36,311 bases of DNA, taken from Verrucomicrobiota bacterium. GTDB lineage: Bacteria > Verrucomicrobiota > Verrucomicrobiia > Chthoniobacterales > UBA10450. Below the pieces are notes generated by a model. It worked only from the letters and a program-made list of their open reading frames with translations. It was not told where the DNA came from and did not search any database. The position numbers and the translations under genes are program-made. The stretch covers positions 1 through 36,311 of the forward strand of contig QHPC01000165.1 of NCBI GenBank assembly GCA_003218915.1. Reading direction: 5' to 3'. How positions within the stretch are numbered: position 1 is the stretch's first letter; each line of letters starts with the position of its first letter. This document shows positions 11,383 through 36,311 of this stretch, piece by piece.

Positions 11383-12228
11383 ATGCGAACGCCGTCGCTA
11401 ACAGCATCTAAGAAGCGAAGAAACGCCGGGCGCCCGAGCAAGAAAACTGATGAGAAAGTTAAGGCTCTGATGCAGGTCATTTCCACCGGGGCGCCATATC
11501 GGATTTGTTGCGCTGCAGTCGGGGTTTCCTATGACAGTTTTATGACATGGAAACGCGAGGATTGGGAGTTTGACGCGAAGGTTGAAGCGGCATCTGCGAA
11601 AGCTGCGTTGCGATTGTTGGGCAAGATCGAGAAACAAGCGGATCAAAATTTTGCTGCCAGCAGCTGGATTCTAGAAAGGCGATTTCCAGAAATTTTCAGT
11701 CGGCCCGAGGTGCAGCTCAACCTGATCCAGCAAAACAACACAGTCGAGAACAGCCTTGTGATCAACATTACAGGGACGGATGCGGCGAGGATTGAGGCGC
11801 AGGCGGAGCCGATTCGGGCAGAGGTGGCAGCGATGTTTGAACAATACCGACCGCTCTCAGGCGGTGGTGAAAACGCAGCGCATGAGGTTGAGGCTGAGCC
11901 AGTTGCTGAACAACCGCTTCCGAAGGTTGCGGACTCCGACCAGGGGCGGGTCATCACGCACCGCGACGGCGATGAGAATAGCCAGGCGTTCTGGAGAATA
12001 CTGGTCAGCGCACGCCCTGAGAGGTTGATCGCGAAGGATACGGCGGAGTTCGCGGTCCGGACTTTGTTATCGCAAACGTTAGGCTATAAAGCGCACCGGA
12101 TGGAGATCGATTTTGGCGGTGACCCAGTCACCCTTGAAGAGATGTTCAGCCGGCTTGAAGAGCTGTGTGGCGGATCAAGTTGCTGGCAGGCTGCGCAACG
12201 GCTAGCTGGCTACACTGCAACATCTTAA
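11383..12228 (+). CDS. Terminase small-subunit-like HTH protein (phBC6A51-like)
   Basis: GRPSKKTDEKVKALMQVISTGAPYRICCAAVGVSYDSFMTWK...ASSWILERRFPEIFSRPEVQLN. Confidence 0.65.
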   Translation: MRTPSLTASKKRRNAGRPSKKTDEKVKALMQVISTGAPYRICCAAVGVSYDSFMTWKREDWEFDAKVEAASAKAALRLLGKIEKQADQNFAASSWILERRFPEIFSRPEVQLNLIQQNNTVENSLVINITGTDAARIEAQAEPIRAEVAAMFEQYRPLSGGGENAAHEVEAEPVAEQPLPKVADSDQGRVITHRDGDENSQAFWRILVSARPERLIAKDTAEFAVRTLLSQTLGYKAHRMEIDFGGDPVTLEEMFSRLEELCGGSSCWQAAQRLAGYTATS

Positions 12229-12308
12229 CGGCCTTGTGCCACCCCAATTTTACAGTCGCACCGCAGCTCAAAAATCAGTAAGCTCGAGGGCAACCAGGAG
12301 ATACAAAG

Positions 12309-13697
12309 ATGGCACGTAAATACACACCGCGACCAACCCCGCGTAGACCGTACTATCCCGCTCGCCGTTACGCTCAAGCGGTAGATCAAGGTGGTGGATT
12401 TGCTGGTGGTTGGAAGATCGGGGAACAGATTGGTGGTGGGTTAGGGCAGTTGGCCAAGGCGATAGCTGCGGCTCGTGAACAAGAGGCCCGCAATCGGGTT
12501 GCCAACCGGATCATGAACACGGCGTATGCGCCGCGGGCTGGGTTTGTGGGAGGAACAGCGCCGGCGGCTGGTGTGCCATTAGCTGGCACAGCGCCCGAGA
12601 GAGGTGGAGCGGCTGCAATGGATGAAGCGATTCGAGGCCAGCAATTGATCAATGCGCTACAGAATCAGAAGATAGCGGCTCAGAGGCAGCAGACCGCGGC
12701 TGAAACAATGGAGATGCGCAGGAGAGCGGCAATGGCGGGTGGTGGCGCAGGTCGAAGCCCGTGGCGGCCCGGAGGCGGAGCGAGTGCTGCGCCGGTTTTA
12801 TCGCAAGGTGGTGGGCAAGCCCCCGGCGGGAAGCCCGGTAAGCCGACTAAGTATGAGCCTGGGAGCAGTACGCCGGATGACCAGTCGTATTACAACTATA
12901 ACAATCATCGGGCGGACGTGGATGCGCAGCACGGGAAAGGGACTTTTGACCGGTTACAGGCAGCTACTGGGCTAGTCGAGCAAGATTCCAATACTGGTCA
13001 ATACATATCGAAAGATCCTGACACAGTTGACGTTGATCCTAAGACTGGGGCTATAACATTGAAACCCAAAGGCAGTTATCCTGGCGCGCATATAAGCTCT
13101 GAAGAAGTCCAGAGTAATATGGCGCGTTATGATGCGACCAGTGTCCAACGCGGCGGTAAACCTTCTTACGTCGATCGTTATATGGGAAGTGCTGCGCCAC
13201 AGAGCGGGTTGGGTGCAGGCAGCCAGGAAAATCCGTATACGCCAAAGGGTACAGTGGAGCTGAACGCGGTACCTGAAGGGGGGTGGTTTGTGAGTCCTTC
13301 TGATGGCAAGACTTATCAAAAGCAGCCACATGCGCGACCGGCGCCGGAGGAAAAGAAGACGACTGGTCTTGGAACAGAGACTCCGGAGGGAACGCAGTTG
13401 GCTAGTGCGCCAGAGGCGGCTGGGACTCCGGTTGATCTTGGGCAGTTGCCGGCTGGTGGGCAGGGTACCGATTTAGCTGATGCGATTGCGCGTGCGAGGG
13501 CAGCTCAATCGTTGCAAGGGCCGACTCCGACGCCGATGCCGCCGGTTGATCTGGCGTCTGTGGCGCCGAGCAACATGCCGGCCAGTTTCAGTCTTGGGCA
13601 ATTGCCGACTGGCGGAGGGGTGCCGGATACGCAATTAGCCGATGCAATCAGGATGGCGCAGACAGCTGATCAGTTCAGAGGCTCTTCCTATGGCTAA
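12309..13697 (+). CDS. Low-complexity Gly/Pro/Ala-rich protein with internal C-terminal repeat
   Basis: LGQLPAGGQGTDLADAIARARAAQSLQG and LGQLPTGGGVPDTQLADAIRMAQTADQFRG; overlaps start of giant ORF. Confidence 0.55.
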   Translation: MARKYTPRPTPRRPYYPARRYAQAVDQGGGFAGGWKIGEQIGGGLGQLAKAIAAAREQEARNRVANRIMNTAYAPRAGFVGGTAPAAGVPLAGTAPERGGAAAMDEAIRGQQLINALQNQKIAAQRQQTAAETMEMRRRAAMAGGGAGRSPWRPGGGASAAPVLSQGGGQAPGGKPGKPTKYEPGSSTPDDQSYYNYNNHRADVDAQHGKGTFDRLQAATGLVEQDSNTGQYISKDPDTVDVDPKTGAITLKPKGSYPGAHISSEEVQSNMARYDATSVQRGGKPSYVDRYMGSAAPQSGLGAGSQENPYTPKGTVELNAVPEGGWFVSPSDGKTYQKQPHARPAPEEKKTTGLGTETPEGTQLASAPEAAGTPVDLGQLPAGGQGTDLADAIARARAAQSLQGPTPTPMPPVDLASVAPSNMPASFSLGQLPTGGGVPDTQLADAIRMAQTADQFRGSSYG

Positions 13698-16600
13698 TGG
13701 CACGCTTTCAGAAGAGGTCAGGCGCAAGCGACTCGCTGAGCAGTGGAGTCCAGCCGAAGATGAGATCGACCAGGAAGACGTTGATCTAGAAAACGAACCT
13801 GTCCTGGAAGAGCCGCCGCCTGCGCCCGAAGAGCTTGAGCCCGAAGAACCTGAGGCTAAAGAACAGCCTGAGCCTGAACGAAGGGCCGCTGAACCGGCGC
13901 CAGTGTCTCGAGTACCTGGCCGTGTCCAACACTTTGAAGATTACAGCGTACCGCCAGCGCCAGCTCCTCCTGCCGAGCCGTTAGGCCCTCCGACAAAGTT
14001 CTTGGGTGAAGAGGGCGTCGATATCACTCCAACGCCACCGAAGATCGAGCCCGCGGCACCAGCAGCACCAGAGGCTGGTTTTCTGGGCGAGCAAGGCGTT
14101 GATGTTGTTCCGACAGCTCCAAAGATTCAGCCTGGCGAAGCGGTTATCAAGCCTGAGAAACCATTGCCGCCGGCGAAACCGTTAGAGCCTGAGCCAGAGC
14201 CAGAGGTTGATATACCAGCGACCAGTTATAGGCCTGGCCGCGGCGGGCAAGAACCGCAGTATATCGTTCTTCATTCCAGTGATGGACACGAGAAGGGCGA
14301 CATTAACACACTGACTCAAGGCAATGTGTCGTCCCATTATTACACGACCAAAGACGGCCGATCGATGCATTTCGTGCCGGAAGCTGACACGGCCCATCAC
14401 GCTGGCAGGGATAGGTACGGCGGTGACGGCAATCCGTACACAATCGGGATCGAACAGGAGCATATCGATGGGGAGGAGGAGTGGAGCGATGATCAGGTCC
14501 GGGCCACTGCCAGGACGGTTGCCGGTATCATGCGTCGGCATCCTGATATCCCGCTTGAGAATGTTATCGGGCACGCAGACCTGGCTGGAGAGCGCAAACA
14601 GGATCCGCTCGATTTCCCGTGGGAGACGTTTCGTAAATACGTAACGACTTATCTTAGAGGCGGTGAACCGCGGGAAGCTGCTCGAGAGGGAGTCGCTAAA
14701 GCTGGTCCTGGTAGAGTGCAACATTTTGAGGACTACGCTCAGACGACGCAGGTAGAAACTCGTGATGCAGAGGGCAATATCATTCTAACGCCTGTAACTG
14801 TCGAGGGTCGGCCGGATGTTACCAGGCGAGCTAGGCCAGCGGGTCAATCGGAGTACGGTTATTACCCGGGAGAGAAGCGGGAGGATTTTGTTTACGGGAA
14901 TGCCACGACATTTGGCGATGCGGAGGACCGACGCCGGTATGCGGATGCTCGTGCACATGGATTAAGCGAAGCTGAGGCGCGTGCAGTAGGTGATAATGGC
15001 CGGGGTGCAGCGAGCCAAGGCGGGCTATATACACCAGACACGTATGGCGTCGCAGTCCCGCACGATGTGTTGGTTGAGCGATTCGGCAACAATCCAGCCG
15101 CCTGGCGCAGAGTACGCGTGGATATTGTCACGCCCGACGGCCGCCGGTTACGAGTACCGATTGTTGATATTGGTCCTGGAGCAGGCCCGCAGGCAAGAAG
15201 AGTAGCCGCGGATTTTACTCCACGATTGGCTGCTCAGATTGGGACAGAGGGCAAGTTCGCGTTCAAGCTTGTCCCGGATGCTGGGCCGGACGTGAACAAA
15301 GATCCGCGGATGTGGCAGAGCGAACAATCGGCGATCGCTCAAGGGATTGATTTGAGCGGGATCGCGAAGGAACATCAGCGCTTTGAACGACCGCAAGTCG
15401 CGGGCAAAACGATGACGGATGAAGAAATGGCCCGGGCAGCGGTCAAGCGTGATGAGGCCATGACGCGCCAGCACGACATCATTACGAAGCTGCCTGAGGC
15501 CCAGATATCATGGTTGCCTGATGCCCAGCAATCGCCAGTGCAGCTTTTCAAGCGGCTGAATACACGCGTTGAGGGGGTCAGTGATGCGTTCAGGCACCAG
15601 TACCAAGAACAGGTCAAGACTGAGATCATCAAAGAAGCGCAGGATTTTTACAAGGAGCCTGACCCGCAGAAAGCTTTTGAACGTGCGACCAGTGACGCGA
15701 ATTTCCTGACCGTTGGTGAAGAGATGGGCCGGATCATCAAGGGGATCACCGATATAAAGGATCCAACCCAACGTGCACAGACGTTAGGCAAGCTGAATGC
15801 AGAGTTGGACCCGGCCAAGCAATACAGCGATATAGTTGGCTTGGCCGATAGCGCTGACCGGGTTGCTAGTCCTGAATATCAGCAGCAACAGAGCCAGGCG
15901 ATTGCGCAGAAGAAAACCTGGATCGAGAACCAGTTAAAACAGAATCCACAGCTGCAAGGGACCTTAGGTGAATTTGTGGCTCAACAAGGCGCACAGATTT
16001 TGGGGAGTGCGTCGTTGGCATGGTTGCCACCTGGAATCAGAGAGAGCGCGTTTGCGGCTCAGATCTATGGTCAGGCCAAGGATGAATTCAAGCGCGATCA
16101 TCCTGACTGGAGTGAACAACAACTTAATGATGCAGCTGGTAAATCGGCATTTCTGCAACTGGCGCCGCAGGAGATTGTTAGTGCTGCGATTGGCGGGCGA
16201 TTGGGATCACTGACCGGTGGGATAGGCCATCCAGTAGCACGGATCACATCGGCAGTAGCAGCGCATATGGGTATTGGCGCTGGCGGCGGGGTGTTGCAAC
16301 AGATTGGTGCCAATGTTGCGGCTGGTAAACCGTGGGATGAGGGAATTGATAGAGCTGCTGGCCTAGCTGCTATTCAGAGTGTGCCTGGTGGGATTGCTGC
16401 TGGGGTAACTCATCCGCCTGTACGGCGCGCGCCTGAGGTTGCTCCAGAAAGACCAGCAGTGCCTCCTGAGGAACGTCCGCCGGTAGTGCCAGAACGCCCG
16501 CCGGTAGTACCAGAGGAACGCCCGCCTGTGGCTGAGGAGCGTCCGCCTGTAACTGAGGAGCGTCCGCCTCCTGTGGCCGAGGAACGGCCTGTCGTCACCG

Positions 16601-19600
16601 AAAGGCCCGAGGGACATCCCGTTGCTCAAGAGCCACATGTCGTCGAAGAGCAGCTTAATAAAACCAACCAGGATCTGTTCAACCGGTACCAAGCACAAGG
16701 TGCTATTGAAGAACGACTCGGCCCAGCCGATATTATTAGAGGTGAGCGACCAACCGAATTTGGCGAAACTCCAAGAGGAGCTGCTATTTCTGCGAGAGAA
16801 GATGAAGCGGCACGAGCTCTCGCGGCTGGACGTCCAGAGGATATTGCATCTCGAATGGCTCGTGAACGGGACCTGGGACGAATTGGACAACTACGACCAA
16901 TACCTGGCGCGCGGGGCGAAGGAGTTTTTGCACGAGAAGCGCCCGCCGGCTGGCGCGCAGTAGAGGGCGAGCGACCCATTGATTGGGCTCATCCGGCTAA
17001 TGCTGAAGTCTTGCGTCGAGCCCATATAGTCACAGAAGAGTTCCGACCCGCCATAGAAGCTTTGGGCGCGCGCTTAACTCATGAGCCTGGTAAGAACTAT
17101 GCACATTTAAGCGAAGAGCAAGGTTTCAAGGTTAATCTTGACCCGCTGAAATTGGCGCACAATTCCATCAGTGAGGGACTCACGCCCCAACAGGCGCACG
17201 AGCGAATGCGGGCTGTCGTTGATGAAGAATTGATTCATGCTGCTGATTTATTGGCAATGCATGAGGATTGGCAGAAAGCTGATCCACAACAGAAGCCAAG
17301 GTTATTTCGACAACATGTCACTGAGGAAAGTCGCAGGGCGATGCGGGAAATGTTTGATGCGTATGATCAGGCAAGAGGTACTGGCAATCGGCGATTAGCG
17401 GCAGTTATAGAACGCACGGCCCAAGGAGCTTATAACGCTTATCATTTCCCAGGGCATGGACGGCCGATGGTCGATTTTGGTGAGATTCGCGGGTATTTGG
17501 AACGCAATCCAGAAGCCGCACAACAGATGCGCGGGGAATTGGTACGCCAATTAATTCAGGCGGGGCGCAGCGGCAACATCAGAGAATTCGTTCCGCGCAC
17601 ACTTCTTGGCCGAATGACCAATTATCTGCGCAAGGTATTGACTGCTTTGAAACGCGCTTATGTGCGCTTCAGAGGCGGAGAAGCTGGACCGCTGATCGCA
17701 CGAGCGATCCGATCTGTTGAGGCGAAATTGGATGGGCTTGATGCGATTAGGCGCGGTGAAGCACCCAGAATAAAGGGTACAGGAGCCGAATTTGGTGAAA
17801 GGCCAGAGGCTCCTGGAAAGCGTAAAATCTCGCTACGCGAAGCTATCTTGAGGGCCAAGCTCGGTTATTCGACAGCGCTTAAGGGTGGTGAGAGCGCCAT
17901 GCTCGATTATGTGCCTAACCTGGCGCGGGCGATTCGGCGCAAGCCCAGTCTAGTACAGGCTTACGGGCAGCGGGGCCGATTGGCGCAATTGGTCAGCGCG
18001 TTTCAGTCTATCCCAGGGCGTGAGCGTGCGCGGGTGACTCGTGAATGGACTGATTATATCAGAGCTGAACAGACTCGTAAGCCGTTGCCGGTAGTAGGCG
18101 CTGATACCATGCGGCTCTTGAATGCGCGCAAAGACACTGCGGCTGGTATCGGCCAGTTACTCAAGGAACTCAATGTTCATGTTAAGGATTCCAAGGGACG
18201 GGTCCGGCCGGTTCGTTTGATCGGTGATACCTATTATCCGTGGCGGATCAGCGATGATATGCGTGATGTGTTTAACAATCGCGATGGCAATCGTTCGAAC
18301 GAATTCAACAAGATTGTGGAGCAGGAGATCGCTGCCGGAACGGTTAAGAGCCGCGAAGAATTCGTTGACAAATTTACTCATGCGATCAATGGTGAGCCGC
18401 ATTCCAACGATCACTTCGGCAACGTCGAGCGCGCTCGTGAGATGCGGCTACCGTACTCGTTCTATGACTTCAGCCCTGAAGCGTTCCTGCGGTACGCCGG
18501 GCGTGCGACCGATCGATTGGCGCAGATTGGTGCATTCGGCCAAAAGCTATCTGCGAATGGCAAAGACATGTTTGATCTCTCAATCGAGCACGTTAATCAG
18601 AGAGGCGATCTATCGCATGACGCGAAAGAGAAAATCATCGATCGGATTGTCAGAGAACGCAACGCGGAGTTCGCCGAGGGTCCCAGGAGCACCCTGGATC
18701 GGTTGGGCAGCCTGGGTCGGACCACAGCAACCGGGCTGATGCTATCCAATCCGCAGACATCGTTCATGAACTTTGTATCGGGTGCAGCCCAAAACATGGT
18801 CTTTGGCGGCCCAACCAGTTTCGCTAAAACTGCACTCCAGTTTCCTTTTGGATGGAAGAAAGGGCTCGCTGAAGCCCGCGATCGCAACATCCTGAGAGCC
18901 AATTTGCGCAACATCATGGATGACTATGATCTGGTTACCAACCCTAACTGGATCGAACGCGGTGTGCGCAGAGGTACTGAGATCGGGCTGAAGCTCGGCG
19001 GTCAGGATCTGACCGAATCAATTAACCGGGTGTTTGCGATGCAACAAGCCAAGGAAATTTTGCGCGAATTCACTCGTGAATATGGCGTTAAGGATAATCC
19101 AATCAGCCGGGCTCGAAACGAGTTCGTGTCGCGTCGATTCGGCTTCAAGCATGGGGAAGACGCTACTCGGTCTTTGACCGCACTGGCGCGCGAAGGCGGT
19201 ATCGGGGAGATGTCCGATGAATTCATCCGGCAGTATGTGATGGATGTGCACGGCAATTATGGGCCGGGTCAATCGCCAGCACATATCCTCAATAGTCCTA
19301 TCGGAAAGACAATGTTTCAGTTCCAGAAGTGGGGTGCTAATACGTCGCGTATGATGACGCGCGAATACCTGATGCCGTTGGCTCGCGCGATGCGCAGTGG
19401 ATCAATGGCTGATAAAGGCTATCATATCCTGCGAACCTTATCGTATTTTGGTGTCGGAGCCGGCCTGACGATGCCCGCCGTTGCCGCGCTCAATGCTCTT
19501 TATCGCCGTGACCCACAGGATCCGACCCTGGCCGAGATCGGTAAAGCGTTTTCGAAAGGCGATGTACAAACGGCGCTAAGCTATTCGCTCAAGAAAGCTT

Positions 19601-20526
19601 ATGGCTCGTTGCTGTTGAGCGGGTTCAGCGGGTTGTTTGGCAACTATAATGACGTTATCCAGAACCACCTTGGTCATGACCCAAGTGGTCGGCTCAAAGA
19701 TCCTATGCATCCGCCAGCCTGGGGCGTGCTGGAACCGTTTTTCGCGCTTTATCAAGGTTGGCGCGGTGAAGGTGGTGCGATCCCGAGTCCGCAACTCATG
19801 GATACGTTCGCCAAGAATTTAATCAGCCCGTATCGAGTTGGTAAACAGCTTTTTTTAGGAGCCGGTGCTCAAATGGCTAGCAGCCTAGGGATCAAGATTC
19901 CTTACAGCGAAGAATACGCCGCTAACAATGAGCGCAATTTCGCCCGCAATCGAATTAGTATGTATGAACAGCTGAACCCAGTCTTAAGAGCACAAGCGGA
20001 GGCCAGGGGTACCCAGCAAGCTACTTATAAGATGGCGGGCCGCAGCCCATTCAGCCCAGTCCGGGACCGCATCATTAATGGACTCTTGGCAGGGCATTCT
20101 GAAGAGGTTAATTCAGCGATTCGGGATTGGTTGACTAAGGTGCCAATCGAACAGCGCAAAGCTGAGTATGACCGAATCAAAGACATTATCGGTGCGAATA
20201 GTCCAATGATGATCGGCAAGTCAAAAACGCCAGAGGCTGTGATGGAATTCCTGAGCTGGGCGCATGACAATTTACCTGAGGCCGAAGCGCGCCGGATTTT
20301 TGCACTTGCCCAGACCTACGCTAAGACAGCGATTGATACCGGGATGGAGCAAAGAAGCAAAGGGTTTAACCAATTGGCCCGACTTGATTATGACCGGTTC
20401 AAGGCACCGGTAGCGCGCTCGCCGTCAGCCCAGGCAGCAAGAGCAGCAGCTCAAGGGCGGCAAGTCATGGCGGAGCTAGCCAGGAGACAGCGAGTCGCTG
20501 AGCAATTGCGCGCGCGGACTCAGTGA
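13690..20526 (+). CDS. Giant (~2278 aa) polyvalent-type protein with Amidase_2-like domain
   Basis: ATG 13690; YIVLHSSDGHEKGD...SSHYYTTKDGRSMHFVPEADTAHHAG...IGIEQEH...VIGHADL (amidase); possible RlpA-like stretch (YGNATTFGD...VDIVTPDGRRLRVPIVDIGPG); proline-rich PPVVPERPPVVPEERPPV linker; C-terminal LPD-like region. Confidence 0.75.
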   Translation: MANGTLSEEVRRKRLAEQWSPAEDEIDQEDVDLENEPVLEEPPPAPEELEPEEPEAKEQPEPERRAAEPAPVSRVPGRVQHFEDYSVPPAPAPPAEPLGPPTKFLGEEGVDITPTPPKIEPAAPAAPEAGFLGEQGVDVVPTAPKIQPGEAVIKPEKPLPPAKPLEPEPEPEVDIPATSYRPGRGGQEPQYIVLHSSDGHEKGDINTLTQGNVSSHYYTTKDGRSMHFVPEADTAHHAGRDRYGGDGNPYTIGIEQEHIDGEEEWSDDQVRATARTVAGIMRRHPDIPLENVIGHADLAGERKQDPLDFPWETFRKYVTTYLRGGEPREAAREGVAKAGPGRVQHFEDYAQTTQVETRDAEGNIILTPVTVEGRPDVTRRARPAGQSEYGYYPGEKREDFVYGNATTFGDAEDRRRYADARAHGLSEAEARAVGDNGRGAASQGGLYTPDTYGVAVPHDVLVERFGNNPAAWRRVRVDIVTPDGRRLRVPIVDIGPGAGPQARRVAADFTPRLAAQIGTEGKFAFKLVPDAGPDVNKDPRMWQSEQSAIAQGIDLSGIAKEHQRFERPQVAGKTMTDEEMARAAVKRDEAMTRQHDIITKLPEAQISWLPDAQQSPVQLFKRLNTRVEGVSDAFRHQYQEQVKTEIIKEAQDFYKEPDPQKAFERATSDANFLTVGEEMGRIIKGITDIKDPTQRAQTLGKLNAELDPAKQYSDIVGLADSADRVASPEYQQQQSQAIAQKKTWIENQLKQNPQLQGTLGEFVAQQGAQILGSASLAWLPPGIRESAFAAQIYGQAKDEFKRDHPDWSEQQLNDAAGKSAFLQLAPQEIVSAAIGGRLGSLTGGIGHPVARITSAVAAHMGIGAGGGVLQQIGANVAAGKPWDEGIDRAAGLAAIQSVPGGIAAGVTHPPVRRAPEVAPERPAVPPEERPPVVPERPPVVPEERPPVAEERPPVTEERPPPVAEERPVVTERPEGHPVAQEPHVVEEQLNKTNQDLFNRYQAQGAIEERLGPADIIRGERPTEFGETPRGAAISAREDEAARALAAGRPEDIASRMARERDLGRIGQLRPIPGARGEGVFAREAPAGWRAVEGERPIDWAHPANAEVLRRAHIVTEEFRPAIEALGARLTHEPGKNYAHLSEEQGFKVNLDPLKLAHNSISEGLTPQQAHERMRAVVDEELIHAADLLAMHEDWQKADPQQKPRLFRQHVTEESRRAMREMFDAYDQARGTGNRRLAAVIERTAQGAYNAYHFPGHGRPMVDFGEIRGYLERNPEAAQQMRGELVRQLIQAGRSGNIREFVPRTLLGRMTNYLRKVLTALKRAYVRFRGGEAGPLIARAIRSVEAKLDGLDAIRRGEAPRIKGTGAEFGERPEAPGKRKISLREAILRAKLGYSTALKGGESAMLDYVPNLARAIRRKPSLVQAYGQRGRLAQLVSAFQSIPGRERARVTREWTDYIRAEQTRKPLPVVGADTMRLLNARKDTAAGIGQLLKELNVHVKDSKGRVRPVRLIGDTYYPWRISDDMRDVFNNRDGNRSNEFNKIVEQEIAAGTVKSREEFVDKFTHAINGEPHSNDHFGNVERAREMRLPYSFYDFSPEAFLRYAGRATDRLAQIGAFGQKLSANGKDMFDLSIEHVNQRGDLSHDAKEKIIDRIVRERNAEFAEGPRSTLDRLGSLGRTTATGLMLSNPQTSFMNFVSGAAQNMVFGGPTSFAKTALQFPFGWKKGLAEARDRNILRANLRNIMDDYDLVTNPNWIERGVRRGTEIGLKLGGQDLTESINRVFAMQQAKEILREFTREYGVKDNPISRARNEFVSRRFGFKHGEDATRSLTALAREGGIGEMSDEFIRQYVMDVHGNYGPGQSPAHILNSPIGKTMFQFQKWGANTSRMMTREYLMPLARAMRSGSMADKGYHILRTLSYFGVGAGLTMPAVAALNALYRRDPQDPTLAEIGKAFSKGDVQTALSYSLKKAYGSLLLSGFSGLFGNYNDVIQNHLGHDPSGRLKDPMHPPAWGVLEPFFALYQGWRGEGGAIPSPQLMDTFAKNLISPYRVGKQLFLGAGAQMASSLGIKIPYSEEYAANNERNFARNRISMYEQLNPVLRAQAEARGTQQATYKMAGRSPFSPVRDRIINGLLAGHSEEVNSAIRDWLTKVPIEQRKAEYDRIKDIIGANSPMMIGKSKTPEAVMEFLSWAHDNLPEAEARRIFALAQTYAKTAIDTGMEQRSKGFNQLARLDYDRFKAPVARSPSAQAARAAAQGRQVMAELARRQRVAEQLRARTQ
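14931..14967 (-). other. Partial match (protospacer-like) to CRISPR spacer 8, with TTC at the PAM position
   Basis: 30/37 identity to spacer 21406-21442; + strand flank 14968-14970 is GAA (TTC on crRNA-sense strand). Confidence 0.8.
20314..20351 (-). other. Partial match (protospacer-like) to CRISPR spacer 1
   Basis: 34/38 identity to spacer 20951-20988; adjacent + flank is AAG, not GAA. Confidence 0.85.
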
Positions 20527-20914: not shown

Positions 20915-21545
20915 GTTTCAATCCACGCAGGAGTGTTTAGCTCCTGCGACACATACGCCAAGACAGCGATTGATACCGGGATGGAAGAGTTTCAATCCAC
21001 GCAAGAGCTTTTAACTCCTGCGACTCTGTTCTTCACTAGATGGCTCAGGCTCAAAGTCTTTGTTTCAATCCACGCAGGAGTTTTCAGCTCCTGCGACATT
21101 GGGGTTCTGGTGCGAACCACATTTATCGGAGGCGCATTCGGGTTTCAATCCACGCAAGAGTTTTTACCTCCTGCGACTGTACTAATGTTTCAATCAACGC
21201 GGAGATTTTTAATCTCTGGTTTGTTTGTTTCAATCCACGCAATGACTCGTGGTCACTGCGACCCACTTAGCTCTGGAGGAATACCGGAAGCGGTCCCGTT
21301 TCAATCAACGCAATGACTCGTGGTCACTGCAACCTTAAGCACCGGGTTAAATCCACTCTCGAGCCATTAGTTTCAATCAACGCAATGACTCGTGGTCACT
21401 GCAACACGGCGGTATGCGGATGCTCGCGCGCATGGCCTGAGTGTTTCAATCAACGCAATGACTCGTGGTCACTGCAACTGGATAGATTCGCGTTTCGCCT
21501 CGCTTCCCACCGTCAGTTTCAATCAACGCAATGACTCGTGGCAAC
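20915..21545 (-). CRISPR. Mosaic CRISPR array, 10 repeats; crRNA sense is the minus strand (repeat 3' end ATTGAAAC)
   Basis: Repeat starts (+): 20915, 20989, 21062, 21142, 21187 (degenerate), 21227, 21298, 21370, 21443, 21516 (6 nt shorter). Most spacers 35-44 nt; two short ones of 9 and 4 nt. Confidence 0.97.
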
Positions 21546-21648
21546 ATTTCTTTAGGTATTTTGCGAGCGGCTAACATTTCCTGCTTCTGTAGCTATCTAT
21601 ATCGTCGCAAAATTCCGCGTAATTCCTTGCGCCTCAACACGCGAGCGC

Positions 21649-23763
21649 CTAGCCGTTCTCTTGCATCACTTCGCCGCTCGCATCTAACAATCCGCGCATA
21701 TAGCCCAGGAAATTGTCGTATTGCCCAGGCCGTAACGCATACAGCTCATTACCGATACAATCTGGAGTTAACTTTTCAAACCTGTTGTCCCAGACTTGGA
21801 CGGAGTGCTGCATTAATTCTCGGCTGGTGGGGATCTGGCCGGCTCGCAGTCTGGCAATCAGGCTAGGCTCAGCGACTACAAGCTGAGTGACACTGACGAT
21901 TACCTGGCATCCATCCGCGACCAGCGGATAGTCACCAGCTTTCTCGGCATCACGGATCAGCTCGATTTTGTTCTCGGTTTTTCCAGTGCCTGCGTTCAGT
22001 TCGCGCAGGAGTGCTTCAGTGCAGTGCTCTGGACTGATTTTGCCCTCATCGAACATTTGAGCCAGGACGGCTCGCGGAGTGTCAAATTGAGGATGCAAGC
22101 TAAAAGTGCTGTCATCGGCAATCCGGAAATCCCACACTTCACCGTACTCGTGTTCATTGGAACGGTTCGCTCGGCCGGCGATCTGCAGGATATTGACCAT
22201 CCCGCAGCTTTCGCGATACGCGGTGCGGAAGCTAAAATCAACGCCAGCTTCGACGCAGGAGGTGGCGATTAGAAACCATTCGTTGTCGGCTTTATCAAGC
22301 AGCCGATCGCGCACTCGCTTAACAATGATCGCCCGATCAAACGGAGTCAAAGCGCCAGATAGATGCTCGACACTAAGTCCTGAATCGCGCAGATGACGTG
22401 CGAATACCGCCGCGCTTTGAATCGTGTTAAAGATGACTAGCCGCGGGCCCGGCTTTGACTGCACAAAGGTGGTTAACGTCGCCAAGTCCATTACATCTTT
22501 ACAAGTTTTTATTTCAACTCGCCGAGATTCGAGCGCTGCAGCCTCAACCCGCAGAGCTTCGGGAATCAGCTCGGTAACAACAGGGCGTTCAACTACGGGC
22601 ACAAAATCGTTCAATTGCCAGAAGCGAACCAGTGAACCGGAGCCCAGAACAAGATGACAGCTCCAATCTCGGCACAACTCTGTAAGCCATTTAAACGACT
22701 GCGGCCAAAGCGCAGCGGGGATTGCAGCATGAGCTTCATCAATGAAAATAGCCGAACCCGGTAGTTGGTGTAGTTTGCGCAGACGTGAAATCTTGCAGGC
22801 AGCGAGGGTTTGGAAAAACTGCACAGCGGTCGTAACGATGATCGGGCAATCCCATCGCTGAGTGAGCTGTCGTAAATCGCGGCTATCGAATTCGACCAGA
22901 TGATGATGAGCCGCAACGATCTGTTCAGGGTCTTCTCCCGGTAGTACGAGAGCGCTCCGGTAGACATCGACTGCCTGGTTGATAATGTTGGTATACGGCA
23001 AGACCACAATGACCCGACGCAGGCCACGCTTATGTGCGGTAGCGAGCAGATGCGCCATAACAGCAGTAGTTTTGCCCGAGCCAACGGGCGCATCACAAGC
23101 AACGATCGCATTAGCCAGATCGGCATGGCGGCAAGCGCTATAGATACCGGACCGAATTTTTCCTCGCAGAGCTTCGGCTTCATTTCCTGGAGTCGTAGCA
23201 AGCCCAGCGACGTATCGATCGAGCTGAGCCAACCGTTCAGCGGCTCGCAATGGTTCGCCATCAAGCTCGCGCTCATTGAGATAATTCTGGGCGGTATCGG
23301 AATGGTCTGCGTCAACCAGACAAGAGAGCGCCAGTCTTCGGACCAGACCAGTAAATGGCACATTGGCGACAGAGGTAATTGGCGTAAAGCTCTGGTGGTG
23401 CTGGCCAAGATAATTGGCCAGGAGTTTCTCGGTGCGCTGCCATAATTTTTCCTGCGTGCTTTCATCTATTGCTGGGTCCCGCAGCACAAACTTACGCTTG
23501 GCTTTTTCAACCGGCAATGACGGCAACCCGCAATGATGTGAGTAAGCGAGCAGCGCCGATTCAATAATCTCGTCGAGTTTGCCCAGATCATGGGGAATAG
23601 CGGCGATTACTACTGCACTGACGAATGCCTCACACCATTTCGGCGAGAATGCACCCGCGGCCTCGGTCGCGAAATGGCGTGCATACTTAACGACATTGCC
23701 AACGTGCTCAGCGTAGGTTTGCGCTGGCACGCCAGCTCGAGCGCTATGGGCCAAAGGTGTCAC
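21649..23763 (-). CDS. cas3: Cas3 HD nuclease-helicase
   Basis: IPHDLGKLDE, PVGSGKTTAVMAHLL, FIDEAHAAIP, ATSCVEAGVDFSF, QIAGRANR. Confidence 0.95.
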   Translation of the reverse strand: MTPLAHSARAGVPAQTYAEHVGNVVKYARHFATEAAGAFSPKWCEAFVSAVVIAAIPHDLGKLDEIIESALLAYSHHCGLPSLPVEKAKRKFVLRDPAIDESTQEKLWQRTEKLLANYLGQHHQSFTPITSVANVPFTGLVRRLALSCLVDADHSDTAQNYLNERELDGEPLRAAERLAQLDRYVAGLATTPGNEAEALRGKIRSGIYSACRHADLANAIVACDAPVGSGKTTAVMAHLLATAHKRGLRRVIVVLPYTNIINQAVDVYRSALVLPGEDPEQIVAAHHHLVEFDSRDLRQLTQRWDCPIIVTTAVQFFQTLAACKISRLRKLHQLPGSAIFIDEAHAAIPAALWPQSFKWLTELCRDWSCHLVLGSGSLVRFWQLNDFVPVVERPVVTELIPEALRVEAAALESRRVEIKTCKDVMDLATLTTFVQSKPGPRLVIFNTIQSAAVFARHLRDSGLSVEHLSGALTPFDRAIIVKRVRDRLLDKADNEWFLIATSCVEAGVDFSFRTAYRESCGMVNILQIAGRANRSNEHEYGEVWDFRIADDSTFSLHPQFDTPRAVLAQMFDEGKISPEHCTEALLRELNAGTGKTENKIELIRDAEKAGDYPLVADGCQVIVSVTQLVVAEPSLIARLRAGQIPTSRELMQHSVQVWDNRFEKLTPDCIGNELYALRPGQYDNFLGYMRGLLDASGEVMQENG

Positions 23764-23765
23764 AG

Positions 23766-24662
23766 TTAGAACTGCGCGTGATCAACGTATGTACCGCAAT
23801 CAGCGTAAGTTTTGCCATCTTTACGAGCGACCAGATGTGCCACGCCATTTTCACCGTCCCATTGCGGTATAGTATAATCGGCCTGCGAGATGGAAGGTTG
23901 AGTCAAATCGCCGAGTTTCTTTGGTGTCAGCGCGTCGATCAAGGCCAGTGGTCGACATGAGCCACACGGCTCATTGTGGGTAAAGATGTGCGCATGAATT
24001 ATATCGACCATTGGGCGGGTGACCGAGGCGGTATGCGGGTAAAGATATTTGATCAAGGCCAAGAAAATCTGGATATCGAGAAACGTGCAGCTGCTCTTCT
24101 GCCCGGCGGTCGGATTAACGAAAAGCGGCATCGCATAGAGCCCGTGGACTACTAGCTTTTGTGCGTTAGGAGCCATACCACGATCTTTATTAGCTTCGAC
24201 ACCGGACTTGTTTGTCCATGTAGCAAATTGACAATCAATCGGAGCGACCGATAGCCCGATCCCAAGCTGCAAAGCACCGCAGCGCATAATGTCTGAGCCG
24301 CCCTCTTCCAAGAACGTGTTCCCGAAAAGCGCTCCGTCCCAGAAGCCTGGAGAACTGGATTCGAGCCGTGTTTGGCACTCAGCACGGTCCCGTCCTCGTG
24401 CTTCGAGGATATCATAGCCGGATCCATCAAGGCCAAGCTCTGAGGCAATTTGGAGCCAGACCGGGCCGGTTTTGTTGCCGACCAGATCGCGCGCTTTGCG
24501 TTTGAGCGATACGGCAGAAATTTCGCCTCTGTTATCAGGTCGAATACGTGGCGCTCCGTCATTATTGGGATCGCCATTAGGGTTGGAGTTGCGGACTTCG
24601 ATGATCAGGAGTCCAGTGATAACGGGCAATAGCCCGTTGGAATTATTTTGGATCGTTGTCAT
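23766..24662 (-). CDS. cas7: Cas7 (Csd2-like)
   Basis: GLLIIEVRNSNPNGDPNNDGAPRIRPDNRGEISAVSLKRKARDLV; operon context. Confidence 0.92.
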   Translation of the reverse strand: MTTIQNNSNGLLPVITGLLIIEVRNSNPNGDPNNDGAPRIRPDNRGEISAVSLKRKARDLVGNKTGPVWLQIASELGLDGSGYDILEARGRDRAECQTRLESSSPGFWDGALFGNTFLEEGGSDIMRCGALQLGIGLSVAPIDCQFATWTNKSGVEANKDRGMAPNAQKLVVHGLYAMPLFVNPTAGQKSSCTFLDIQIFLALIKYLYPHTASVTRPMVDIIHAHIFTHNEPCGSCRPLALIDALTPKKLGDLTQPSISQADYTIPQWDGENGVAHLVARKDGKTYADCGTYVDHAQF

Positions 24663-26631
24663 TTTTTATTGTATCTTTGATAGGTTGCAGTGTGTCTGGA
24701 GAACATTGCGTTGATTGAAACGAATTGCCGAGGTGATAGCCGCAGATGAATTTCGCTTTATCAAGCGTAGTCATCTTAGCTGGGAATTGAGTAGGATCGA
24801 TGAGTCCAGAACAAACGTTGATCTGACCCAGTAGATATTTGACCAACCGCAGTTCACATTCAGGCCCGGTAACGCGAACTGTCTGAGCCCAGGCCCGATA
24901 TGGCTGCAGACGAGTATTGGCATTGACAAAAGCATCGAGCGGTCGCGTCAAGGCAGCGTTAAAAAAGGAGTTACCGATAAGTTGTGTAGGCATATCGCCT
25001 TTGCGGACGTGGCGGCAATATTGCAGATGGAGACCATCCATGAGTTGGAGCAGATGCCCCAGTTGCGTGATAGATGTATTCATATAATTTGAGTGCCCGA
25101 TCCGAAAAAGTAGAATGCCGATAAGAGGCATGGCGTTGAGAGCATATTTGCGTGCATCCTCGCCAACGACATAATAGCCATGGCGATTTTCACGCTTGTA
25201 GGTTTGTACTTGGTACCGGCCAATGGCGCTTAGCACACGGCCTATACGCTCAACCAAGAGCGTCAGCGCGCGCTCAGTTTTCTGCCGCGCAAGCGGCGAA
25301 TGCCAGAGAAACACGTCATAAGCATCCGAAGCAGAAAAAGCGTATTGATAATCGCAGCTGAAAACTTCATCAGGATCTGTTTTCCACACCCGGTTGATCG
25401 TTGATGATAGCGCCAGTGGATACGGTGCGCGGCTAGTCAACCAGCGCGGCTTGCTTGTCTTCTTATCCATCACGGGGAGCCGGATTTCTGGCGCGAGCAG
25501 GGCGCCTGCCTGCCATTGCGTGCAAGCCTCAATCAAATCGCGTACATGAATGTCGCGGCAAAGAGCAACCTGCTGCACGCCTCGGCTAACTTTATGGAGT
25601 ACAAGCAACCGAGTAGAAAGCTCAGGATTGGCAGGCAACTTGGCCTTGAGTAATTGAATCGCAGGTTCGCATAGAGCTGCAAAATCGGCGTCAGAAGAAT
25701 CAGTAACGCCAAACATGTCAGCGCTCGGAAAAGTATCGAGCAACTCTCTGTCGCCACCATTGAAATAAGCTATTAAGAGATCAGATTCTTTGGTTTTTTG
25801 ACTTGGCACAGGACACCAGGTTTTACCCTTGCGCGAATCTGCAGTGAGATAATTGAGTGTGGCGCTGACTGATTGCACCAGAGCCATGGAAACAGTGAAA
25901 GCATTGGTCAACTCGTAACGTGAAAGAGCCGAGATCGCGTCAGTATTGAGCGAGTAAAGTTTGAGTTGACCCAAAATTGGTGCGCTCAATGAAGGAAAGG
26001 CATTTGTAATCGCGACATGCTCACCGCTGTAATGATCGATACCGAGCTGTGGAACCGAGACACGGGCCAGAAGATGCTGATTGATTAGCGCGCTGGTTTT
26101 GGAGTGCGCCACACGCGGCTGAATAGGATCACGCAGCGCCGGAATCAAATCGAGATAAAGCGAATATTTTTTGTTCTTGTCATCTTTAAATTTGACCTTC
26201 CTGGCTAGTGAAGACGCTGGCAATAAGGCGACTAATGCCGAATGAAAATCTGTTGCGCTCAGTGTTGAGTTGCCAATTACGTCAAGCAATCGGGTGAAGT
26301 TGATTAGTTCTGGAACTGCGTCAGCAAATTCAACCTGCAACCGTGCGGCGTACTCAAAAGCGCGCAGCGGGCTGCTGTTGAGTTTGCTGGCATCGATTAG
26401 TAGGTTGAATCCCGGAAAGCTGGCCGTGTTCTTAGCTGCGGCATCTTCTCGGATCTTGTGCAGGCCAGTGTCGGTTTTGAGCATTTCCACTTCTACCGGG
26501 AGCCCGCTCTGATCAACGGAAACGACGAACATAGTATCGCCCGGCATCGGAGCAAGACGCGGATGCCATTGCGGACATACGATTCCAAGCCGATCAAGTG
26601 TGCGAGCCGCTTGCACAAGTTCGCTAAACAT
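24643..26631 (-). CDS. cas8: Cas8-like large subunit, divergent I-C type
   Basis: 662 aa between cas5 and cas7; FNGGDRELLDTFPSADMFGV, ALLAPEIRLPVMDKKTSKPRWLTSRAPYPLALSS; mostly context. Confidence 0.75.
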   Translation of the reverse strand: MFSELVQAARTLDRLGIVCPQWHPRLAPMPGDTMFVVSVDQSGLPVEVEMLKTDTGLHKIREDAAAKNTASFPGFNLLIDASKLNSSPLRAFEYAARLQVEFADAVPELINFTRLLDVIGNSTLSATDFHSALVALLPASSLARKVKFKDDKNKKYSLYLDLIPALRDPIQPRVAHSKTSALINQHLLARVSVPQLGIDHYSGEHVAITNAFPSLSAPILGQLKLYSLNTDAISALSRYELTNAFTVSMALVQSVSATLNYLTADSRKGKTWCPVPSQKTKESDLLIAYFNGGDRELLDTFPSADMFGVTDSSDADFAALCEPAIQLLKAKLPANPELSTRLLVLHKVSRGVQQVALCRDIHVRDLIEACTQWQAGALLAPEIRLPVMDKKTSKPRWLTSRAPYPLALSSTINRVWKTDPDEVFSCDYQYAFSASDAYDVFLWHSPLARQKTERALTLLVERIGRVLSAIGRYQVQTYKRENRHGYYVVGEDARKYALNAMPLIGILLFRIGHSNYMNTSITQLGHLLQLMDGLHLQYCRHVRKGDMPTQLIGNSFFNAALTRPLDAFVNANTRLQPYRAWAQTVRVTGPECELRLVKYLLGQINVCSGLIDPTQFPAKMTTLDKAKFICGYHLGNSFQSTQCSPDTLQPIKDTIKNDNDPK
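24684..24721 (+). repeat. Solitary CRISPR-repeat-like element inside the cas8 3' end, antisense to the cas operon
   Basis: GTTGCAGTG-TGTCTGGAGAA-CATTGCGTTGATTGAAAC versus array repeat GTTGCAGTG-ACCACGAGT-CATTGCGTTGATTGAAAC: exact 9-nt and 18-nt flanks, different loop. Confidence 0.85.
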
Positions 26632-27247
26632 AGTTAAGCACTCCTTTTTTGATCATCACATTATGGCGGATAACAGGATCAGGGTTGCCATTGTGGAGCT
26701 GATCAAAGACACTGTGCAGCATTGCCGGAATCAAATGGTTTTCGGTGTCGCACACTGCCGTGCTTTCTCGGAATGGCCCGACATATGAGGGCACGAATTC
26801 TTTCCAGCCGAGAAATGGCATGTGGTGATAACGCCCGATTTCGAGCCCCCGGTTGAATGCATTTCGATATTCAGACGCGGCGAAGGAGCCCCAAATCGGA
26901 CCTGAAGCGTTGGGGATAAAGTCGATTGCTGCGTAAAGACGATAGATCACATTGATCAAAACCTCAGAGTGCAGCTGGAACGAATCGCCTTTTCGGATCT
27001 GGGAGGTTTTACGGAGCGGACCGCCATAGTTAGTCGTGTAGCGATGATACTGAACTGGAGCGCATATTTCGGCGCGAATCGGACGAACAACAACGAGATG
27101 TTGCCAATTACGGATAGATTCAAAAATGCCTTTGACCGCTGAAAAAGTCGGGGCTGGATAGCTGCGCGGGCAGGAACCAGAATCAAGCCGAGTCCATAAA
27201 GCTATTGGGCCGGCAATTTCAAGTTGGATCTCTTGGATGTTGTCCAT
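26624..27247 (-). CDS. cas5: Cas5 (Cas5d-like; candidate crRNA endoribonuclease)
   Basis: LEIAGPIALWTRLDSGSCPRSYPAPTFSAVKGIFESI; no Cas6 present; start could be 27262. Confidence 0.85.
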   Translation of the reverse strand: MDNIQEIQLEIAGPIALWTRLDSGSCPRSYPAPTFSAVKGIFESIRNWQHLVVVRPIRAEICAPVQYHRYTTNYGGPLRKTSQIRKGDSFQLHSEVLINVIYRLYAAIDFIPNASGPIWGSFAASEYRNAFNRGLEIGRYHHMPFLGWKEFVPSYVGPFRESTAVCDTENHLIPAMLHSVFDQLHNGNPDPVIRHNVMIKKGVLNYV

Positions 27248-27284
27248 GTGTTCCTGCTTCAACAGTACGGCAGAATGTGGCTAC

Positions 27285-27952: not shown

Positions 27953-28369
27953 TTATAAAGGAAGCTCCTTAAACGGATTAAATACCTTAATACCATGGCG
28001 CCGAAAATCGCGCTCATTACCTGTGACGATCGTCAGGTTATGACGCAACGCCGTCGCGGCAATGTAGCTATCTTCGATCGGCATCGGCTTACCGGCCTTG
28101 ACCATCTGGTATCGAAGATCGGCCCATGTGAAAGCGATTGAAACACTGAAGCCGTAAATGCGTCCCTCAAGAGTCCTGACCAGACGAGACAGCCATTCTT
28201 GCAATGCTGCCCTTTGCCTGCCTTGTTTTGTTCGCACCCAATACCCAAGCTGCGCTATAACAACCGAGCTTGTATAGCAGCGGGTATATTCCGCCTTGAT
28301 CCAGGCAACAATAACGGGATTTTTTCTCGCCCCCTGGCTAAGAACATCTGTATCAACGAGCCAGCTCAC
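27953..28369 (-). CDS. vapC: PIN-domain toxin, VapC-like
   Basis: MSWLVDTDVLSQGAR...PIEDSYIAATALRHNLTIVTGNERDFRRHGIKVFNPF. Confidence 0.9.
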   Translation of the reverse strand: MSWLVDTDVLSQGARKNPVIVAWIKAEYTRCYTSSVVIAQLGYWVRTKQGRQRAALQEWLSRLVRTLEGRIYGFSVSIAFTWADLRYQMVKAGKPMPIEDSYIAATALRHNLTIVTGNERDFRRHGIKVFNPFKELPL

Positions 28370-35973: not shown

Positions 35974-36311
35974 GTGCGTAAGCCTCAGTTGCGTGTCCAA
36001 GAGTATCCGCATTCGCGCACCGCACGCTACGTCATTGAAGGACTCCGCATAAACGGCAAACGTAAACGGCTCTTCTTTCGCACCCGCATTGAGGCCCAGC
36101 GCGAACTTGCCCGAATCAAAATAAAACGTGCCCGGGAAGGAGAAGATGCCCTAGCCATCCCCGACTCACTGCGGATCATGGCGCGCGATTGTGCTGCGCT
36201 ACTTAGTCCTCATAATAAGACCATCGCCGAAGCGACCGCTTTTTATCTTGCGCACCTCGAAGCACTCTCAAGCAGCATCACTGTCGCGGAGTTGGCTCGT
36301 GAATACCAGAA
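35974..36311 (+). CDS. int: Tyrosine recombinase N-terminal part, truncated at window end
   Basis: VRKPQLRVQEYPHSRTARYVIEGLRINGKRKRLFFRTRIEAQRELARIKIK...FYLAHLEALSSSITVAELAREYQ. Confidence 0.65.
   Translation, partial: MRKPQLRVQEYPHSRTARYVIEGLRINGKRKRLFFRTRIEAQRELARIKIKRAREGEDALAIPDSLRIMARDCAALLSPHNKTIAEATAFYLAHLEALSSSITVAELAREYQ

Follow-up and report, generated by a model that had tools for sequence, protein, structure and literature searches.

Organization of the element and its type I-C module

The window analyzed here is the whole 36,311-nt stretch, to which all coordinates refer (Table 1). Because the two parts of a tyrosine integrase gene lie at its opposite ends and are, compared with most homologues in the order, only ~70 nt apart, the carrier is probably a near-complete circular phage-derived element of ~36.4 kb. 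No terminal overlap between the contig ends was found. Upstream of a DUF927 primase-helicase, a gene at 4006-4662 encodes a VWA-domain protein belonging to phrog_7371, a phage family of unknown function.

Table 1 Features of the window. Matches of spacers are given as identical positions over spacer length.
Feature	Position	Strand	Remarks
Tyrosine integrase, C-terminal part	3..752	+	Contig start
Terminase small subunit-like gene	11383..12228	+	In relatives, a large terminase candidate and the portal gene come next
462-aa protein gene	12309..13697	+	Beside the giant gene; homologue in the equivalent place in G214
Giant gene (2,294 aa)	13642..20526	+	Residues 202-322 form an Amidase_2 domain; phage contigs G214 and G215 carry homologues
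Self protospacer-like site of spacer 8	14931..14967	-	In the giant gene; 30/37; TTC flank
Self protospacer-like site of spacer 1	20314..20351	-	In the giant gene, near its 3' end; 34/38; CTT flank
CRISPR array	20915..21551	-	36-nt repeats, 7 spacers of 35-44 nt; leader end probably adjoins cas3
Spacer 1 (leader-distal, oldest)	20951..20988	-	Matches the giant gene at 20314-20351
Degenerate repeat/spacer remnant	21178..21226	-	Within the array
Spacer 8	21406..21442	-	Matches the giant gene at 14931-14967
Leader-proximal repeat	21516..21551	-	5' half damaged, no hairpin
cas3 (HD nuclease-helicase, I-C like)	21649..23763	-	HD, GSGKT, DEAH and QxxGRxxR motifs intact
cas7 (Cas7c/Csd2-like)	23766..24662	-	
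cas8c	24643..26631	-	
cas5c	26624..27262	-	
Tyrosine integrase, N-terminal part	35974..36309	+	Contig end

The four cas genes were recognized by PADLOC as a type I-C effector set, with matches to Cas3c (5e-92), Cas8c (4e-86), Cas7c (1.5e-24), and Cas5c (8e-14). For cas7, the best match was Cas7b (2e-35), a model common to types I-B and I-C. The assigned open reading frames of the window included no cas1, cas2, or cas4, and no Cas1 was found in the carrier's own MAG (84.9% complete). Within the order, 49 of 214 genomes contain a Cas1, and none of these 49 belongs to the carrier's genus. As the absence of cas1 and cas2 is common in phage-borne variants (PMC7162821), we filed the system as an adaptation-less I-C variant. 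A PIN-domain protein, possibly a VapC-like toxin, is encoded next to the cas genes at 27953-28369. Elsewhere in the order, a single contig of a distant member (locus L033, G096:C92) combines matches to Cas8c and Cas1 with a long array of uniform repeats in the same orientation as the array of the window; this contig may serve for comparison with a complete I-C system.

The crRNA strand was assigned as the minus strand because the repeats end in GATTGAAAC in that sense, following the I-C convention; this end and the accompanying stem-loop are a type I-C feature. The repeats fall into two stem families, in which compensatory changes in the stem retain the hairpin, and one hybrid repeat is found at 21227. 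No Rfam family was matched. The leader is placed beside cas3, since the repeats are uniform on that side and varied at the opposite end. Loss of the leader-proximal hairpin, degeneration of one inner unit, and the missing adaptation genes suggest that the array is frozen.

Viral relatives and satellite-like gene content

The original prediction, made from this DNA alone, was that the array targets competing relatives carrying the giant gene. Homologues of this gene do occur elsewhere, in two viral contigs, so the prediction does not fail for want of them. In the IMG/VR contig G214 (42.4 kb), the giant protein, the 462-aa protein, the terminase small subunit, the exonuclease, and RecT all have counterparts that are homologous, while G215 (20.2 kb) encodes homologues of the C-terminal half of the giant protein (~46-51%), RecT (76%), the exonuclease, and the terminase small subunit. 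Both contigs also carry a portal gene and a phrog_5902 gene, which we read as a large terminase candidate because of its position and its P-loop, and G214 carries a major head protein gene. In a simple scan, neither contig contained the repeat of the window or any regularly spaced exact repeats. Further searches for relatives returned amidase-domain matches only (giant protein against phage records), no match beyond the carrier's own genome (last 542 residues of the giant protein against the 214 genomes of the order), no relative (scans of genome contigs), and solely an already known contig (RecT against IMG/VR).

In these relatives, the large terminase candidate, the portal gene and, in G214, the capsid genes lie between the terminase small subunit gene and the 462-aa and giant genes. 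In the window, the latter two genes come immediately after that for the terminase small subunit (12228-12309), with no intervening structural genes. Capsid, portal, and large terminase genes are absent from the window, where all open reading frames of at least 400 aa were assigned to other functions. Lacking these genes of its relatives, the carrier looks satellite-like. An assembly error at 12228-12309 is a possible source of the missing module. The large terminase candidate of G214 had no match in the carrier's own MAG, in a search run without a positive control. Like PICI-like phage satellites, the carrier has an integrase, a replication gene, and a small terminase subunit and lacks a large terminase, a portal, and a capsid; unlike them, it is larger (36 kb), has kept a giant phage-type gene, and carries CRISPR-Cas.

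Two spacers match the giant gene of the element

The spacer at 21406-21442 was reported in the original prediction to match the giant gene, and its coordinates, its 30/37 identity, and the translation shared by both sequences (RRYADARAHGLS) were correct on recheck. Its number, 8, is a matter of counting, because the degenerate stretch within the array can be counted either way. The TTC claimed to flank the self site also holds: it is the reverse complement of 14968-14970 and lies 5' of the site in the crRNA sense. Mismatches were found at crRNA positions 1, 4, 6, and 7, the seed positions already named, and in addition at positions 13, 16, and 34. Most of the differences had been described as synonymous, an understatement, as all seven are.

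A second self-match, absent from the earlier description and stronger than the first, was found for spacer 1, the site of which lies 564 bases from the array. Three of the four differences are synonymous, and the remaining one alters a single amino acid. Both matches fall on the same strand of the same gene; thus, two of the seven usable spacers match a gene that makes up 19% of the window. When each spacer was shuffled 200 times, no shuffle reached the observed identity, and the best one gave 25 matches.

The remaining five spacers gave little. Spacer 2 (21025-21061) agrees at 25/37 positions with a minus-strand site at 11881 in the terminase small subunit gene; the maximum of 200 shuffles was 24, and the translated comparison was at background level, making this a weak lead. 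Matches of spacers 3, 6, 7, and 9 to the window were at background level in the shuffle test.

Published listings of I-C PAMs include both TTC and CTT (PMC8482600). The flanks in the window, TTC for spacer 8 and CTT for spacer 1, were read at self sites and not at a true protospacer. It had been proposed that self-targeting is avoided by divergence rather than by PAM loss, which agrees with the TTC at the spacer 8 site but does not extend to the spacer 1 site with its CTT flank.

The mismatches point to a coding donor

To be so conservative at the protein level is unusual for random change: the same number of random substitutions preserved the protein equally well with P ~0.0001 for spacer 8 and P ~0.04, a marginal value, for spacer 1. 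Spacers in an array carry no coding constraint, and the differences must thus have arisen in genes. Decay of the spacers inside the array was considered as a source of the differences and is ruled out by the synonymy. As mutation of the spacers is unlikely to have spared the protein, the pattern argues for a donor homologous to the giant gene and itself protein-coding or, failing that, for the carrier's own gene having changed after capture. The donor was probably the giant gene of a near relative.

Pooled over both self sites (n = 11 mismatches), crRNA positions 1-8 account for 6 mismatches, where 2.4 would be expected (P ~0.009). Because the mismatches concentrate in the seed, the element's own copy of the giant gene probably escapes targeting.

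We therefore sought the donor protospacer itself. The spacers joined by Ns had no match in phages and one chance match in plasmids (E = 4). Degenerate DNA patterns derived from the target peptides of both sites retrieved no near-perfect protospacer from IMG/VR, and neither did spacer 8 from the 214 genomes of the order. The near-perfect protospacers with TTC that had been anticipated are consequently neither established nor excluded by the phages, plasmids, IMG/VR, and 214 genomes (spacer 8) searched. G214 lacks the stretch matched by spacer 8, G215 matches spacer 1 at 25/38 only, and both contigs appear too distant to be targets of the array. The proposed targeting of competing relatives is thus favored by the evidence for a coding donor and by the presence of two spacers against one gene, but not by any donor in the collections searched.

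Origin and role of the spacers

On balance, we consider it probable, with some reserve, that two of the seven spacers derive from the giant gene as carried by a close relative and that the I-C module excludes such relatives while the element's own copy escapes. The phage-derived element combines Cas3, Cas5c, Cas7, and Cas8c with an array and does without adaptation genes, and of the seven spacers, two or more would have been taken from the relative's giant gene. In a cell occupied by both elements, Cascade-Cas3 would recognize that gene and destroy the relative's DNA, so that the element would have a built-in means of keeping competitors out. Its own giant gene would be spared by synonymous, seed-concentrated changes and, at one of the two sites, also by the lack of a TTC flank. 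Gene content, flanks, synonymy, and the significant matches were observed directly; interference activity, the identity of the donor, the escape, and the competitive benefit, for which there is published precedent, are inferred.

The spacers might instead derive from the element's own lineage, the giant gene having gained synonymous escape mutations later. Purifying selection on the carrier's gene predicts the synonymy equally well, and the enrichment of mismatches in the seed fits selection for escape. However, some differences lie outside the seed, and a divergence of 10-19% seems large for one lineage over the lifetime of an array. Moreover, divergence is lower for the older spacer at the leader-distal end (4/38) than for the younger spacer (7/37), which, for two sites compared, is a weak argument against a clock of self-divergence. 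We regard this origin as unlikely.

A more elaborate scenario, to which we give a rather low probability, is that a phage satellite, having shed its module for capsid and packaging but kept the giant gene, aims a frozen I-C system at the giant genes of helper-type or rival phages, its own synonymously diverged version replacing theirs.

It is quite improbable that the array is a decaying remnant whose spacers came from the gene of a homologue but whose system no longer works. The degenerate stretch and the damaged leader-proximal repeat would fit such decay, as would a MAG without Cas1 and the lack of a same-genus member among the Cas1-positive genomes of the order, but the cas genes are open, the Cas3 motifs are intact, and the repeat stems covary.

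In type I systems, regulatory guides pair through the seed and are mismatched at the PAM-distal end. Both matches lie on one gene and one strand, and one has a TTC flank, as might be expected if the partial matches functioned as guides for regulating, and not cutting, the giant gene of the element itself. Here, however, the mismatches lie in the seed, contrary to that pattern, and the targets are within the gene body, away from the promoter, making regulation very improbable. Chance resemblance is ruled out by the shuffles and by the preservation of the reading frame and of all encoded residues but one, and its likelihood is practically nil.

Comparison with known virus-borne systems

The reading we prefer, spacers taken from a close relative, places the element among known cases: it fits the kind of virus-borne CRISPR directed against relatives, a feature of which, the difference in the seed between spacers and the carrier's own loci, is found here. 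The mini-CRISPR arrays of the Sulfolobales portogloboviruses SPV1 and SPV2 hold spacers against close relatives, with self loci mutated such that self-targeting is avoided and with targets near the array (PMC6858448). The carrier resembles them in the relatives it would target, in its altered orthologous loci, and in the proximity of the targets to the array. However, the SPV1 and SPV2 arrays have 1-2 spacers and no cas genes and use the host Cas, whereas the carrier has its own I-C effector genes.

Huge phages encode type I-C variants without Cas1 and Cas2, and some spacers of their short arrays are directed against structural and regulatory genes of other phages (PMC7162821). They share with the carrier a phage-borne I-C-like module devoid of adaptation genes, but a helicase replaces their Cas3, whereas the carrier has a Cas3 with an HD motif, is ~36 kb in size, and has no capsid genes. 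Haloarchaeal proviruses encode a type I-B system without cas1, cas2, and cas4, and their spacers are enriched for viral targets (PMC12596717). These proviruses are likewise integrative viral elements with an effector and no adaptation module; they differ in being archaeal and in that a partner system supplies adaptation in several hosts, while no Cas1 was found in the carrier's MAG. A limited literature search returned no report of a self-contained I-C module borne by a satellite.

The synonymy test used here infers the kind of donor even for a donor that databases do not contain. The carrier may compete with its relatives, and it would then exemplify in bacteria, and with effector genes of its own, a pattern documented best in archaeal viruses: an element apparently armed against its relatives, the own target copy of which has been silently changed, mainly in the seed. 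If the carrier is indeed a satellite, a self-contained CRISPR weapon would be added to the satellite repertoire.
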